The notes beneath the pieces are model-generated. The model was not told the origin of the DNA. It saw only the letters and a program-made list of their open reading frames with translations, and ran no database searches. A stretch of DNA of 64,000 nucleotides, from assembly GCF_030846775.1 (NCBI RefSeq), contig NZ_CP132910.1:1832001-1896000 (forward strand), written 5' to 3'. The translations under genes were made by a program, and so were the position numbers. Below are positions 2,018 through 34,791 of this stretch, one piece after another. The number at the start of each line of letters is the position of its first letter. Position 1 is the stretch's first letter. Origin of the DNA: Geothrix sp. 21YS21S-2. Its GTDB lineage: Bacteria; Acidobacteriota; Holophagae; Holophagales; Holophagaceae.

Positions 2018-4244
2018 GGGTGAGGGTGTAGCCGGCCGTGGTGGAGTAGGCCCGCTTGTAGCCGTTCACGAGGATGTAGTAGTTGACCGCGCTGGCGCCG
2101 GTGTTCTTGTAGGTGACGGACTCCGTGGACGAGCTGCCCGTGCTGCTGGCCAGCTTCGTGCCGGAGGCGTTGTACAGGTAGAGGTCGTAGTCCTTGGCGG
2201 GGCCGGTCATGTTGACGGTGAGCGTGGCGCCGGGGTTGACCGCGACCTTGAAGTAGTCGGCGTCGGTGGTCGTGCCCACGAAGCCCGTGATCTTCGTGAC
2301 GGCGTTGCCCACGGCGTTGGCGGTGGCGATGGTGCCGTTGCTCTCCACCTCGGCGTAGGTGGCCGAGCCGGAGGCGACGGTCACGGTTGCGGAGGCGGAC
2401 TTGCTGGTGTCGGCGGTGGAGGTGGCCGTCACGGTGTAGGTGCCGACGGTGGCGGGGGCCGTGTAGAGGCCGGCCGTCGTCACCGTTCCGCCCGTGCAGG
2501 TCCAGGTCACGGTGGTGGTGCTGCTGCCGCTCACGGCCGCGGTGAACTGCTGGGTCGCGCCGGGGGCCAGGGTGGCCGACCCGGGCGTCAGGACGACCGA
2601 GACGCCCGTGGAGGCCAGGGCGCCCACGTTGATGGCGCCGAAGGCGTTCTGCACGGCGGCATACTCGGCGCCGGCGGCGCCGTAGAGGTCCGAGGCCGCA
2701 TTGAGCGCGGCGGTGCGGGCCGCCGCATAGTTGGTGCTGGAGGTCATGTAGGATGTGAGGGCCTTGTACCAGATGCGGATGGCCTTCTCGGGGCCGATGC
2801 CGCTGAAGCCCGAGGGGGCGTAGGAGCTGTAGTAGTTGCTCGTGCTGGTGGCGCTGGCGCCCTGGCTCAGGAAGAAGAACATGCGGTTCGCGGGGCCCGA
2901 GCTGTAGTGCACGTCGAGGTTCTTGACCGTGGAGGACCAGGCGTTGGGGCTGGCGCCGTCCAGGCTGGGCTTGTACATGTAGCGCAGGGGGGTGGAGGAG
3001 AGCTGCTCGCCCACGGTCCAGCAGCCGTCGGTGTTGGCCACCGTGGCGGGCATGGAGAAGCCGTTGCGGGCGTAGAGCTCGACCATGTTGCCGAACATGT
3101 CGGAGTTGGCCTCGTTCAGGCCGCCGGACTCGCCGGAGTAGGTGAGGTTCGCTGTTGCGGCGCACACGCCGTGGCTCATCTCGTGGCCGGCCACGTCGGG
3201 GGCCTCGAGGCTCTTGAAGGAGCTGCCGTCGCCGTACGTCATGCAGAAGCACGTGTCGTCCCAGAAGGCGTTGTCGTAGCTCTTGCTGTAGTGCACGCGG
3301 CTGTAGGTGGCCTTGCCGGCCCCGTCGATGCCGTTGCGGCCCAGCAGGTTCTTGTAGAAGTCGTAGGTGATCCCCACGCCGTAGTGGGCGTCCACCGCCG
3401 CGGTCTGGCCCGTGGCGCCGGTGGTGGAGGTGGTCGAGCCGGTGTAGTTCGTGCCGTCGCCCCAGGCGTTGTCGGCGTCGGTGTAGAGGGTGCCGGTGCC
3501 GCTGGTGGCGTGGTTCAGGTTGTAGGTGGCGATGTTCATGCCGCGGACGGTGTCCTTGAGTTCGTAGGAGGCGCCGTTGAGGTTCGTGTTCAGGGACACG
3601 GTGCCGCTGAACTGGGACTGGCCCGAACCGACGGCGGCGGTGGTGTGAAGGTCGTCCCAGGCGTCCAGGATCGCGCCGGTGTGGGCGTCCACGAGGTAGT
3701 CGGTGTCCTTCGTCTCGCCCTCGTTGCGAAGCGAGGTGTGCACGTGGTAGGCCAGGACGTGGCGGAGGACCTGCTCCTCGAAGTCCTCGGCGTTGGCGGC
3801 CCGGGCGCGGCCCGCCTTGGCGGCGAGCGCCTTGACGGGGTAGACCACCAGCCTGGCGGTGGGGGCCTCGGCGTAGGCGCCGGCAGGGGCGAGATGCCCG
3901 TGGGCCACGGCCACGGCCTCGGCCGGAGCGAGGTTGGGCTGGACGTTGATGGCGATGTGGCGCACCAGATGGTCGGTGATGGGGCGCTGGAGCCCGGAGG
4001 CCTCGGTGTGGGTGATCGCCATGCCGCCGAACACCGGGATGCCCTGGTAGTGCTGCTGGAAGCGCGCATGGGTCCGGCCCGCCTCGTCCTTGATGGCGTT
4101 GCGCTGGGAGAAGGTGTGCTGTCCGTCGAGTCCCAGGGCGCCGCGCAGGTCCGTCAGGTGGCTGAGCGGGGTCACCTGGCCGAAAGCCGGGGCGACGACC
4201 AGGGCGAGGGTGAGGAGGGTGAAGGTACGACGGCTCGAGGCCAT
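2007..4244 (-). CDS. Secreted thermolysin-like M4 metalloprotease with Ig-like and PPC domains
   Basis: A 745-residue exported neutral protease. In order: Sec signal peptide (1-22), FTP and PepSY inhibitory propeptide (about 35-195), and an M4 catalytic domain (about 200-540). The zinc site is HEMSH near residue 354, followed by the third ligand in GLNEANSDM. Next comes a bacterial Ig-like domain (about 545-635), then a pre-peptidase C-terminal PPC domain (about 640-745) with the typical AEVESNGTIATANAV and DYDLYLYNASGTKL segments. PPC and propeptide are normally removed during secretion and maturation. An AGGGAG ribosome site precedes ATG 4244. Probably a nutritional protease that supplies amino acids. 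Confidence 0.93.
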   Translation of the reverse strand: MASSRRTFTLLTLALVVAPAFGQVTPLSHLTDLRGALGLDGQHTFSQRNAIKDEAGRTHARFQQHYQGIPVFGGMAITHTEASGLQRPITDHLVRHIAINVQPNLAPAEAVAVAHGHLAPAGAYAEAPTARLVVYPVKALAAKAGRARAANAEDFEEQVLRHVLAYHVHTSLRNEGETKDTDYLVDAHTGAILDAWDDLHTTAAVGSGQSQFSGTVSLNTNLNGASYELKDTVRGMNIATYNLNHATSGTGTLYTDADNAWGDGTNYTGSTTSTTGATGQTAAVDAHYGVGITYDFYKNLLGRNGIDGAGKATYSRVHYSKSYDNAFWDDTCFCMTYGDGSSFKSLEAPDVAGHEMSHGVCAATANLTYSGESGGLNEANSDMFGNMVELYARNGFSMPATVANTDGCWTVGEQLSSTPLRYMYKPSLDGASPNAWSSTVKNLDVHYSSGPANRMFFFLSQGASATSTSNYYSSYAPSGFSGIGPEKAIRIWYKALTSYMTSSTNYAAARTAALNAASDLYGAAGAEYAAVQNAFGAINVGALASTGVSVVLTPGSATLAPGATQQFTAAVSGSSTTTVTWTCTGGTVTTAGLYTAPATVGTYTVTATSTADTSKSASATVTVASGSATYAEVESNGTIATANAVGNAVTKITGFVGTTTDADYFKVAVNPGATLTVNMTGPAKDYDLYLYNASGTKLASSTGSSSTESVTYKNTGASAVNYYILVNGYKRAYSTTAGYTLTLTR

Positions 4245-4532
4245 ACGGTGCTCCCTTGCGGATGGGTTGGAAGGATCCAGAAGCTACGGGTCATGCGGCC
4301 GAAGGCGTGGAGGGCCTGCGGCGCATGGGTTCTGGACGGTGGGGGTGTGACCTGAAAGGATCATCAGGGAATCCCCTGCGCACGGGGTGTTAATTAATGT
4401 GAAATCCCGATTGGCGACCTACACATATTTAATTGTAAATGAACGAGATAGAACGCTGGATGAGTACCTCGCGTTGTGTGATACTGCCTCGGAACCCGAT
4501 GCATTCGACTCTTCCTTTTCCCGGGAAACCCA
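4245..4532. promoter_or_regulatory. Divergent promoter region between the M4 protease and the DUF1573-like gene
   Basis: 288 bases serving two divergent genes. A conspicuously AT-rich patch (about 4388-4440) stands out against the GC-rich background and contains TTAATTAA at 4390-4397. It most likely holds the promoters. I could not pick convincing -35 boxes, and I see no RNA gene here. Confidence 0.35.
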
Positions 4533-30741: not shown

Positions 30742-32904
30742 ATGCACACTTGCCATTCGACCCTCCGGGGAAACGCTCACCGGTGGCGCCGGGCGGCGCT
30801 GGCGACGGTCCTGCTGGCGCCCCTTTCCGCCATGGATCCGGTCCCGCCCGGCCGGACAGCTCCCGTCCCGGCGACCGGTGGCGGGGGCGAAACCGAAGCG
30901 CTCATGCGCTCCCTGCTGGCCGAGCTGAAGGGCTTCGGCCTTCCTGACGACAGGAAGGAGAAGGAGGCTCCGGCCGTGGGCGGGATCCTCCACGACCTGA
31001 CCCTGCGCGGTCTGCACCTGCGGGCCGGCGCCGGTCTCCGGGGCGCCGACCTCCGCGGCGCGGATCTCCGGCGCCTCGACCTTGCCGGCGCGGATCTGCG
31101 CGGCGCGGACCTCACCCGGGCCAGGCTGGAGGGCGCCAACCTCACCGGCGCCAGGCTGGAAGGCGCCCGCCTTTTCTGCGCCGACATCGGCGGCGCCATC
31201 GGCCTCGATCTGTCCGATACGCGGCTCCATCCCTTCTTCGAGATCCTCGAGGACGAGGACGTCGGCCACGTCAAGACGCTCAACCTGGGCAGGCCCGGGA
31301 ACGAGGAGCGGGGTCCGGTGCGCAACCTCGCGGCCGGTCCCGATGGCCGCCTGTTCTGGACCCAAGGCGACCATCCGGCCATCGAGAACATGACCGTCAC
31401 CGGGGTTCGCCACGCCATGCCGCCCGTGGTGGATACCCGCATTCACGCCCTGGTGGCCGACAGCCGCGGCCGGCTGTGGAGCGTGGGCGACCGCATGATC
31501 GGCATTTGCAGCTTGGCGAGCGTGAGCCGGGCGATCAGCGGCGAACCCATTCGATTCAGTACCTGGAAGATGGAAATTCCCGCCCGGCCGAATCAGGTGG
31601 TTGCAGGGTCGAACGGCGACCTTTGGGTCTCGCTGGCGGAACGGGTCTGCCGCATCAGCCACGATCCTGCCAGCAACACGTTCGGGTTCCGGGACCTGGC
31701 CTTCCGTTGCGCGGGGCCGGCGGCCGGCACCCTTGGGATGTCCGGCTCGAACGAAGCGGGCATCGCCTTCGCCGTACCCGAACAGGAAAGGGTGTTCTTC
31801 CACCGGGGACAGGGTCAACCGCCGTCCACGTTCGCCCTGCCCCCCGGAAGCCGGCCGCGGCGCCTGGTGCCGGGGCAGGACGGCCGGCTCTGGTTCATAC
31901 AGGCCGGGCCGCCGGGGATCGGCGAGATCGGCGTGAATGGCAGCGGGTGCAAGGTCCACCTCCTGGACGGCCCGGCCACCCAGCCGCACGGGATCGCCCC
32001 CGGGCCCGACGGCTCCATGTGGTTCACCGACACGGCCGGGGAGCGCATCGGACGGATCGCTTCCGGCGGCCGGATCACCTGGTTCCCCCTGCCCCGGGGC
32101 AGCCGGCCCCAGGAGATCGTCCCGGCACCGGACGGCCGCATGCTCTTCACCCTGCAGGGCCGGAGCGCCATCGGCTCGATCCGTGCGGCGCTCCGGCCGG
32201 CGACGCGGCTGGCGCCTGGCCCCGTCGATCGCCTGGCATGGGAAGCGGCCGAGTCCAAGCAGGGCCCTCGCAAGGCCGCCGCCCTTCCAGCAGGCGGCGA
32301 CTCCAGCACGTCCTCCACCACCACGTCCTCCTGGGAGGTTCCGGTCTACCACCCCAGGCCGGTTCCTGTCGCGAAGACCCCGAGCCGGGAGGAACGCCAC
32401 GCCCTGCACCAGCGCAGGCTGGAGGCCGCCGAGAAGGCCCTGCTGGCGCGCCAGGCCCTCGAGCCCAAGGAGGCGCCGGCACCGCCCCCCGGTCCGCCCA
32501 CGCCCGCCCCCGAAGTCCCCTCGATCGAGCTGGACGCCCTGCTGGACCAGTTGGAAACACAGGCGGTGCTGCTGGCCCCCGGAGCGGTCCGGCACAGCCA
32601 GGCCCGCCATTGCGGCGCCTCGGAGGCCAATGGCCGATGGGCCGCGCCCTTCGCGAACCCGCAGGCGCTGGCCGCCCTCATCGCCCGGGGCATGCTGGCT
32701 TCGGGGGCCATCGCCAAGGTGACCGCGCCCGACGGAGGCTTTGAAACCGCCTGCGAAAGTCAGGAGATCGTGGGCACCTACCGCGACTGCCAGGGCGTCC
32801 ACCCCACCCGGTGGTTCCGGGTGATCACGGAGCGGCACATCGTGGAGGACCAGGAGGTTCAGATCGTCATGACCGCCTACCCCATCGCCGAACACTGGCG
32901 CTAG
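30742..32904 (+). CDS. Exported pentapeptide-repeat/beta-propeller protein with a nuclease-toxin-like C-terminal domain
   Basis: 720 residues. A probable signal segment (about 15-32, WRRAALATVLLAPLSAM) is followed by pentapeptide repeats (about 85-155, e.g. LRGADLRGADLRRLDLAGAD). Then comes a beta-propeller of at least six blades (about 190-490) of the Vgb/streptogramin-lyase type, each with a DGRLWF-like core. A low-complexity Ser/Thr and Pro linker (about 510-600) precedes a compact C-terminal domain (about 612-718), with ARHC near its start, EIVGTYRDC in the middle and EVQIVMTAYPI at its end. That order resembles EndoU/BECR-fold bacterial toxin nucleases. The match is by eye and tentative. 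No obvious immunity gene is seen. Confidence 0.65.
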   Translation: MHTCHSTLRGNAHRWRRAALATVLLAPLSAMDPVPPGRTAPVPATGGGGETEALMRSLLAELKGFGLPDDRKEKEAPAVGGILHDLTLRGLHLRAGAGLRGADLRGADLRRLDLAGADLRGADLTRARLEGANLTGARLEGARLFCADIGGAIGLDLSDTRLHPFFEILEDEDVGHVKTLNLGRPGNEERGPVRNLAAGPDGRLFWTQGDHPAIENMTVTGVRHAMPPVVDTRIHALVADSRGRLWSVGDRMIGICSLASVSRAISGEPIRFSTWKMEIPARPNQVVAGSNGDLWVSLAERVCRISHDPASNTFGFRDLAFRCAGPAAGTLGMSGSNEAGIAFAVPEQERVFFHRGQGQPPSTFALPPGSRPRRLVPGQDGRLWFIQAGPPGIGEIGVNGSGCKVHLLDGPATQPHGIAPGPDGSMWFTDTAGERIGRIASGGRITWFPLPRGSRPQEIVPAPDGRMLFTLQGRSAIGSIRAALRPATRLAPGPVDRLAWEAAESKQGPRKAAALPAGGDSSTSSTTTSSWEVPVYHPRPVPVAKTPSREERHALHQRRLEAAEKALLARQALEPKEAPAPPPGPPTPAPEVPSIELDALLDQLETQAVLLAPGAVRHSQARHCGASEANGRWAAPFANPQALAALIARGMLASGAIAKVTAPDGGFETACESQEIVGTYRDCQGVHPTRWFRVITERHIVEDQEVQIVMTAYPIAEHWR

Positions 32905-32910
32905 GGGATT

Positions 32911-32924
32911 TTTATCCGGATAAA
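32911..32924. promoter_or_regulatory. Palindromic operator candidate 1 (DUF2239 promoter)
   Basis: TTTATCCGGATAAA is a perfect 14-base palindrome just after the stop of the propeller gene. A second copy follows exactly 30 bases on, about three helical turns, so a dimeric regulator could bind both on one face of the DNA. Confidence 0.6.
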
Positions 32925-32940
32925 TAACTAGCCTCAAATT

Positions 32941-32954
32941 TTTACCCGGATAAA
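32941..32954. promoter_or_regulatory. Palindromic operator candidate 2 overlapping a -10-like box
   Basis: TTTACCCGGATAAA differs from copy 1 at one base. It runs into TAAAAT (32951-32956), a likely -10 hexamer, 26 bases before the DUF2239 start. Binding here would block transcription. Confidence 0.58.
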
Positions 32955-32981
32955 ATAGTCTCTGGTCAACGGAGACACCCC

Positions 32982-33602
32982 ATGGAAACCCCCTTCCCCC
33001 TTTCATGCACCGCCTTCCTGGGCTCGCGGCGGCTCGCCGCGGGGTCCCTGGCCTCGGTGGCCGTGGCGGTGAAGCGCGCCCTGGAGGCCGATCCCCAAGG
33101 GTCGGCGCTGGTGTTCGACGACGCCGGCGGCCGGGTCATCGACCTGGACCTCCGGGGCACCGAAGCGGACCTGCTGGCCCGGCTCGCGCCGCCGCCGGAG
33201 GCCCCGCGGGGCCGGGGCCGGCCCAGACTCGGGGTGGTGCCCCGGGAGGTGACGCTGCTGCCCCGGCACTGGGAGTGGCTGAACACGCAGCCCGGTGGCG
33301 CTTCCGTGGCCCTGCGCCGGCTGGTGGAGGAGGCCCGGCGCGCCCGCAAGGACGTGGACCGGTTGCGATCCGCCCAGGAGGCTGCCTACCGGTTCATGTC
33401 GGCCCTGGCTGGCGACCAACCGGGCTTCGAGGAGGCCTCCCGGGCCCTGTTCGCCGGGGACGCCGAACGGTTCGGGGAGCACAGCGCCCCCTGGCCCGCC
33501 GATGTGCGCCGGCACGTGCTGTTCCTGGCCGGACCGGCCCTCGGCCGGGATGGGCGCCCCGGACCCGATTCCCAAGGAGGCGAGGATGGATCCGGCATTT
33601 GA
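32982..33602 (+). CDS. DUF2239 family protein
   Basis: 206 residues. The centre matches DUF2239: RGRPRLGVVPREVTLLPRHW near residue 78, then LNTQPGGASVALRRLVEEAR. This family has no known function. The basic, helix-rich core with an R/K-rich loop could bind nucleic acid, but that is inference. The first ~70 residues are more variable. Expression is probably controlled by the twin palindromes upstream. The next gene, a GIY-YIG protein, starts 17 bases before this one ends, so the two are made together. Confidence 0.8.
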   Translation: METPFPLSCTAFLGSRRLAAGSLASVAVAVKRALEADPQGSALVFDDAGGRVIDLDLRGTEADLLARLAPPPEAPRGRGRPRLGVVPREVTLLPRHWEWLNTQPGGASVALRRLVEEARRARKDVDRLRSAQEAAYRFMSALAGDQPGFEEASRALFAGDAERFGEHSAPWPADVRRHVLFLAGPALGRDGRPGPDSQGGEDGSGI

Positions 33603-33933
33603 CCGCAAGGCGGCCCTGCGCGCCTACAAGGAGCGCAAGCCCAGGCCCGGCATCTACGCGGTCCGGCACATCGCCTCGGGCCGGGCCTGGGCCGGCGCCG
33701 CCAAGGACCTGGACACCACCCGCAACGGCCTTTGGCACGTGCTGGAGGACCGCCGGCACCTGGACCGCAGCCTGCAGGCCGCGTGGGACCACCATGGGGC
33801 GGAGGCCTTCGAGTACGTGATCCTGGAGGTGCTTGCCGGGGACCTGGCCCCCTTCGTCCTGAAGGAGACCCTCAAGGAACGCCTGGCGGAGTGGGCGCGC
33901 CGCCTGGCGGGTGGGAGTTTCGGCAGCCGGTGA
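33586..33933 (+). CDS. Small GIY-YIG nuclease-fold protein
   Basis: 115 residues. The GIY half is PGIYAVRHIASGRAWAGAAK (about residues 24-43), where the second YIG-like element has decayed to WAG. An Arg in the following helix and a conserved Glu in AFEYVILE complete the fold. Family members cut DNA; single-domain versions like this one are poorly characterised, and the altered YIG leaves activity uncertain. ATG 33586 has AAGGAGG (33574-33580) five bases upstream. It overlaps the DUF2239 gene by 17 bases. Confidence 0.78.
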   Translation: MDPAFDRKAALRAYKERKPRPGIYAVRHIASGRAWAGAAKDLDTTRNGLWHVLEDRRHLDRSLQAAWDHHGAEAFEYVILEVLAGDLAPFVLKETLKERLAEWARRLAGGSFGSR

Positions 33934-34224: not shown

Positions 34225-34791
34225 ATGGCCAGACCGAAAAGCGAGGACAAGCGCAGCGCCATCCTGGCGGCGGCCACCCGGGTCATTGCCGCCCAGGGGC
34301 TGGGGGCGCCGACGGCCGCCATCGCCAAGGCGGCCGGGATCTCCAACGGGTCGCTGTTCACCTATTTCGAGACGAAGCACGAACTGCTCGACCAGCTCTA
34401 CCTGGACCTCAAAGTCGAAATGGCTTCCGCGGCGATGGCGGATCTTCCCTCCGGCAGCGAACCCCGGACCCAGGTGCTGCATCTGTGGACCCACTGGCTG
34501 GAGTGGGCGGAAGCCTGCCCCGAGAAGCGCCGGGCGCTCGCGCACCTGTGCGTGTCGGACGCGATCACGCCCGCGAGCCGCCAGATCGTCGGGGCGTCGT
34601 TCGCAAAGGTCCTGGACCTGCTGGAGGGGATCCGCGCGGCCGGTCCCATGCGCGAGGTTCCGCTGGCGTTCGTCCTATCCCTGATGAACGCGCTGGCGGA
34701 CGCGACCATCGACTTTGCGATCCAGGACCCGGATCATGCCGACGCGCATGGCAGGGCGGCCTTCGAGGCCTTCTGGCGGATGCTCGCCTGA
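34225..34791 (+). CDS. TetR family regulator
   Basis: 188 residues. The helix-turn-helix domain (about 8-55) contains PTAAIAKAAGISNGSLFTYF. The C-terminal ligand domain is not diagnostic. It begins at ATG 34225 (MARPKSEDKR); an upstream GTG at 34198 is in frame but lacks a ribosome site. Copies of one half-site, TGACTGACTAG, stand upstream of this gene and again between it and the acyltransferase gene, so it probably represses itself and the two genes behind it. Confidence 0.88.
   Translation: MARPKSEDKRSAILAAATRVIAAQGLGAPTAAIAKAAGISNGSLFTYFETKHELLDQLYLDLKVEMASAAMADLPSGSEPRTQVLHLWTHWLEWAEACPEKRRALAHLCVSDAITPASRQIVGASFAKVLDLLEGIRAAGPMREVPLAFVLSLMNALADATIDFAIQDPDHADAHGRAAFEAFWRMLA

Follow-up and report, generated by a model that had tools for sequence, protein, structure and literature searches.

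Described systems and the Geothrix locus

Ribbon-helix-helix (RHH) proteins of the MetJ/Arc/CopG type are small autorepressors that act on their own operons from paired palindromes lying over the promoter, and type II toxin-antitoxin operons combine two overlapping genes, one of them a constant toxin partner, with paired autoregulatory sites. GIY-YIG proteins such as I-TevI can also bind DNA; the catalytic residues of I-TevI are the second Tyr, the Arg (Arg27) and the Glu. AT-hooks enter the minor groove with arms built around a GRP core. Our search of the literature for DUF2239, PF09998 and COG3644 found no paper.

The locus analysed here, in a 64,000-nucleotide stretch of the Geothrix sp. 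21YS21S-2 genome (the window), resembles an RHH-controlled operon in its layout, with two palindromes over the promoter of a small protein, DUF2239, that would be the repressor (Table 1). The preliminary description had placed these palindromes, TTTATCCGGATAAA and TTTACCCGGATAAA, ahead of a DUF2239/GIY-YIG gene pair, with starts 30 bp apart and the second site running into a −10-like TAAAAT, and the coordinates, the distance and the overlap all proved correct. The identity of the first gene is equally clear (PF09998, E = 5.4e-78, 261 bits vs the curated cut-off of 25, residues 8–183), whereas the GIY-YIG assignment of the second one finds no match in Pfam and is recovered only with a profile of its orthologues (see below). 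The 17-nt overlap of the two genes makes their translational coupling likely.

Table 1. Features of the DUF2239 operon in the window and operators found away from DUF2239 in other genomes
Feature	Sequence or genome	Position	Strand	Remarks
Operator 1	TTTATCCGGATAAA	32911–32924	.	Perfect 14-mer palindrome; just 5' of the place of the −35 in relatives
Operator 2	TTTACCCGGATAAA	32941–32954	.	One broken pair; overlaps the spacer and the start of the −10
−10-like hexamer	TAAAAT	32951–32956	+	From the sequence itself, with relatives as a guide
DUF2239 protein, proposed autorepressor		32982–33602	+	206 aa; PF09998; invariant core GRPRLGVVPREVTLLPRHWEWLNTQPGGASVALRRLVEEARR
GIY-YIG-like protein		33586–33933	+	115 aa; first 17 nt shared with the end of the DUF2239 gene; catalytic positions eroded
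Trans operator	G107			Before DUF1330, then hydrolase
Trans operator	G475			Before DUF1330, then hydrolase
Trans operator	G800			Before hydrolase
Trans operators	G110			Before hydrolase; separately before GIY-YIG
Trans operator	G105			Before GIY-YIG

The operators occupy the gap between the DUF2239 start and an upstream Vgb-lyase/pentapeptide-repeat gene (30742–32904), which codes for a 720-aa protein with pentapeptide repeats and a virginiamycin-B-lyase-like propeller and ends just 5' of them. Dinucleotide shuffles of the window gave no matches to the palindromes, so that the pair is far above chance. The TTGAC −35 that is present in most relatives is degenerate here, and a scan of the window promoter revealed no sigma-70 pair at threshold; a search against Rfam found no RNA element. 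With at most one mismatch, the palindrome occurs in the 5.25-Mb genome only at this promoter and in one further copy inside a reverse-transcriptase ORF (L003, 4311951–4314962), and a degenerate 16-mer search again picked out the same two window sites. The genome scan proposed earlier thus shows a motif private to the DUF2239 promoter save for that copy, which was rejected as an operator and attributed to chance. The reverse-transcriptase ORF itself may belong to a retron or a diversity-generating type of element.

Distribution of the paired operator

Analysis of the regions upstream of DUF2239 in 80 contigs of a bacterial and archaeal collection and in 16 genomes of the class showed that a palindrome pair stands before almost every DUF2239 copy across many phyla. 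At least one palindrome with two or fewer mismatches was found within 300 bp upstream in all 94 distinct loci and at least two in 74 of them, as against 48 (2.3%) and 1, respectively, of 2124 further 300-bp windows taken from these loci. When no more than one mismatch was allowed, there were 103 palindromes upstream of DUF2239 vs 6 in 665,630 bp elsewhere. The paired consensus is TTTTAYCCGGGTAATATTGAC-N-ATTTTACCCGGGTATAAT. DUF2239 orthologues in different phyla keep the pair; its absence upstream of orthologous gene pairs would have counted against the preliminary description.

The collected loci come from Acidobacteria, Chlorobi, Proteobacteria, Planctomycetes, Actinomycetota and others. Caulobacter vibrioides is one of the species that have DUF2239. 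The pair is also present upstream of DUF2239 in loci of Paenibacillus, Deinococcus, Azospirillum, Rhizobium, Cupriavidus and Comamonas that lie outside the training set of the operator model described below; plasmid-borne DUF2239 genes with a pair are found in these same genera (two each in Deinococcus and Azospirillum) and in Eleftheria. The Novosphingobium locus has one clear site. In some Chlorobi (L026, L032, L036, L042, L054, L064 and L087), the pairs are ∼ 54 bp apart, not 28 bp. The IMG/VR contigs with DUF2239 that are labelled viral may be cellular; one recognizable site is present in most of them.

A loose paired pattern (CCGGRT-N-AYCCGGRT) returned mostly noise in GC-rich genomes, and a sequence-only covariance model of the paired operator (R1), trained on 44 promoters, was used instead. 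In the 93 genomes of the class, a sample from which some of the training promoters were drawn, R1 matched the DUF2239 promoter in 16 of the 16 DUF2239-encoding genomes and nothing else in those genomes; the 77 genomes lacking DUF2239 yielded weak matches only (best 5e-4), mostly in AT-rich genomes. Among 396 genomes of the phylum, 15 of the 16 with an R1 match (E ≤ 0.001) encode DUF2239 (Fisher p = 4e-24); the gene scores over the cut-off in 17, and the two that R1 missed show the palindromes on inspection. All 15 R1-positive genomes among 300 Burkholderiales have DUF2239 directly at a site. Most of the Burkholderiales matches, the plasmid matches and the phylum matches beyond Holophagaceae were outside the R1 training set. 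The operator is thus essentially absent from genomes without DUF2239 in the surveyed class, phylum and Burkholderiales sets. Beyond Holophagaceae, nearly all DUF2239 loci have the operator yet no GIY-YIG neighbour; since that partner is optional and the operator is kept without it, the operator follows DUF2239.

This co-occurrence, the optional nature of all partner genes and the lack of a recurrent regulator beside DUF2239 in the annotated neighbourhoods point to DUF2239 itself as the binder. We infer that DUF2239 is probably a dedicated autorepressor that binds both palindromes, occludes the promoter and controls a tiny regulon. The preliminary description had raised binding by DUF2239 as something to check; it is now the best-supported reading of the sequence data, and of the gene pair named there it is DUF2239 and not the GIY-YIG gene that the operator tracks. 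A rather unlikely alternative is that the pair is bound by an unlinked conserved transcription factor (of the Rrf2, MarR or TetR type, for example), of whose targets DUF2239 is simply the most constant one. Such a factor would fit the lack of a recognized DNA-binding domain in DUF2239, the operators in trans before other genes and, in the window, a TetR-family regulator gene (34225–34791) located ∼ 290 bp 3' of the operon. It would, however, have to co-occur with DUF2239 in many phyla; the operator is essentially missing where DUF2239 is missing, and no regulator recurs next to it.

Promoter geometry and the GIY-YIG-like partner

Of the 75 loci with a pair, 61 have a TTG[AC][CA] element, which in 58 of these starts 7–8 bp past the centre of palindrome 1; in 55 loci, the best −10 (at 17–18 bp spacing) begins 3–4 bp beyond that of palindrome 2. 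Because of these fixed offsets, palindrome 2 covers the spacer and the −10 and palindrome 1 adjoins the −35. The earlier view of the sites as operators over a promoter is therefore strongly supported, by conservation of the pair across phyla as well as by its fixed placement with respect to the −35 and −10. The claim that three helical turns between the sites signal cooperativity is not supported: spacing in the family varies from 25 to 30 bp with a mode of 27–28 bp, so that the 30 bp of the window is not the rule, and a minority of loci have 34 bp (two loci) or 19 bp (a few, L075, L082, G361 and Acinetobacter). Exact 30-bp phasing was rejected for this reason; the −35/−10 geometry accounts for the 27–28-bp spacing and a helical-phase argument is unneeded.

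We propose that DUF2239 binds each palindrome (TTTAYCCGGRTAAA) as a dimer, with operator 2 masking the promoter spacer and −10 and operator 1 abutting the −35, and that with both operators occupied RNA polymerase would be excluded from the DUF2239 promoter; in the window, the target would be the DUF2239/GIY-YIG operon. The position of operator 1 beside the −35 and the weak −35 of some promoters, the one in the window included, could also be read as a sign that DUF2239 binds as an activator or dual regulator, with activation through operator 1. We regard this as quite unlikely, given that operator 2 over the spacer and −10 favours steric repression and that the TTGAC −35 of most promoters is a good one.

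The GIY-YIG-like protein has no Pfam GIY-YIG match, but a profile of nine orthologues matches the GIY-YIG domain of I-TevI (1ln0, E = 1.6e-4) over 70–76 residues. In contrast to I-TevI, these orthologues have WAG or WAD instead of YIG in the second motif, T, R or A at the position of the catalytic Arg27, which is not conserved, and E or D at that of the Glu. With its catalytic positions eroded, the protein is probably not an active nuclease. It is very improbable that this protein, or a toxin-antitoxin-style complex of it with DUF2239, is the binder and the gene pair an addiction or defence module: the overlapping, autoregulated two-gene layout with its paired putative sites does resemble type II operons, I-TevI does bind DNA and PADLOC gives the protein a weak homing-endonuclease match, but the partner of DUF2239 is inconstant and no known toxin, DUF2239 is alone in most genomes and has no PADLOC match, the catalytic positions are eroded, the GIY-YIG gene, where present, may be divergent or lie at another place in the genome behind its own operator, and the operator stays where GIY-YIG is missing, for which reason GIY-YIG as binder was rejected.

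The DUF2239 protein and its predicted regulon

If DUF2239 is the repressor, its DNA-binding unit is likely to be the invariant basic core GRPK-LGVVAREVTLLPRHWEWLNAQPGGASVALRKLVEEAR. The central 42 residues, which start with GRPK/R, are almost invariant (mean column identity 85% in the core vs 53% overall). In the AlphaFold2 model (pLDDT 88.8), an N-terminal beta-beta-alpha-beta domain, a possible sensor, is followed by a short helix (94–101), a Gly turn, a long helix (106–142) and three C-terminal helices. Two helices follow the REVTLL segment in this monomer model, and the order of the core (REVTLL segment, helix 94–101, Gly-rich turn, helix from 106) resembles the beta-alpha-alpha unit of RHH proteins; unlike these, DUF2239 has additional domains at both termini and a first helix that is ∼ 4 residues shorter, and it has no significant profile or fold match. 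Pfam searches with 45 members found no domain beyond DUF2239 and no RHH match, one member matching TacA1 at 0.09; a PDB sequence search gave no RHH assignment, and with the full model and the core Foldseek returned no match and VIA no RHH support. Against the RHH_1 alignment, hhalign gave a borderline score of 12.2, exceeded by 2 of 60 column shuffles. RHH_4, taken as a second reference, gave only one class match. A direct RHH assignment was rejected, as these searches were all negative or borderline, and an RHH identity of the core is only suggestive. The invariant GRPK/R directly before the core, together with the AT-rich flank around the CCGG palindrome of the operator, is reminiscent of AT-hook arms, but the motif is single and the Pfam AT_hook model reaches only E = 8.8, in one member.

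The DUF2239 of an Acinetobacter plasmid (L156), 34% identical, has an altered core (REITLQKKHW) and altered operators, TTACCCTGATAA and TTACCCCGATAA (at about 2360–2426), 19 bp apart; this altered core facing altered operators is a single case of co-variation.

Outside the DUF2239 promoters, R1 has six strong matches (L182, L184, L186, L188, L225/L250 and L254), in five genomes that also carry an operator-bearing DUF2239, and all six precede genes for EstT-like alpha/beta-hydrolases, DUF1330 and hydrolase, or GIY-YIG proteins (Table 1). The two genes of the window, earlier taken to be the target, are therefore too narrow a definition: GIY-YIG is optional, and in other genomes the site also precedes DUF1330 and alpha/beta-hydrolase genes. 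The earlier idea of repression is well supported and extends to a predicted regulon that spans several phyla. The predicted regulon would comprise DUF2239 and, in some genomes, GIY-YIG-like, DUF1330 and EstT-like alpha/beta-hydrolase genes, placed in the same operon, divergently or behind a paired operator of their own. DUF2239 and GIY-YIG share an operon in Holophagaceae and one other acidobacterium, and the two genes are divergent in Azospirillum brasilense, Phyllobacterium, Brucella endophytica and Microvirga; DUF2239-DUF1330 operons are found in Rhizobium and Eleftheria, and Paenibacillus has the order DUF2239-DUF1330-hydrolase. The latter cluster (with an EstT-like hydrolase) lies at 2480–4530 of plasmid pJ45TS6 (L153), a mobilizable Firmicutes plasmid, beside tet(L), a setting that suggests horizontal spread.

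The EstT/EstX family hydrolyses 16-membered macrolides (PMC12704417). The regulon hydrolase has its closest relatives among macrolide esterases of the EstT/EstX type and related enzymes. The Paenibacillus hydrolase matches the NCBIfam models for macrolide esterases (best E = 9e-58) and structures of EstT, but its 196 bits are far below the curated equivalog cut-off of 420, and the gene is absent from the window. A detoxification role of the regulon is thus only a lead. We tentatively consider it possible that DUF2239 is an unrecognized family of ligand-responsive repressors, distributed over many phyla, whose DNA-binding core, a GRP arm joined to a shortened RHH-like or new fold, would be peculiar to it, and that DUF2239, DUF1330, the EstT-like esterase and the GIY-YIG-like protein form a four-family xenobiotic-response regulon.

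Starting from one palindrome pair, an uncharacterized Pfam family thereby gains a candidate role, along with predicted target genes and a 54-position DNA target model that locates DUF2239 in any genome. Few operators are conserved over a range such as that from Acidobacteria to Firmicutes and Deinococcus; this one places DUF1330 in one predicted regulon with a GIY-YIG-like protein and an esterase whose relatives inactivate macrolides. The ligand of the sensor, if found, would tell what these widely distributed genes respond to.
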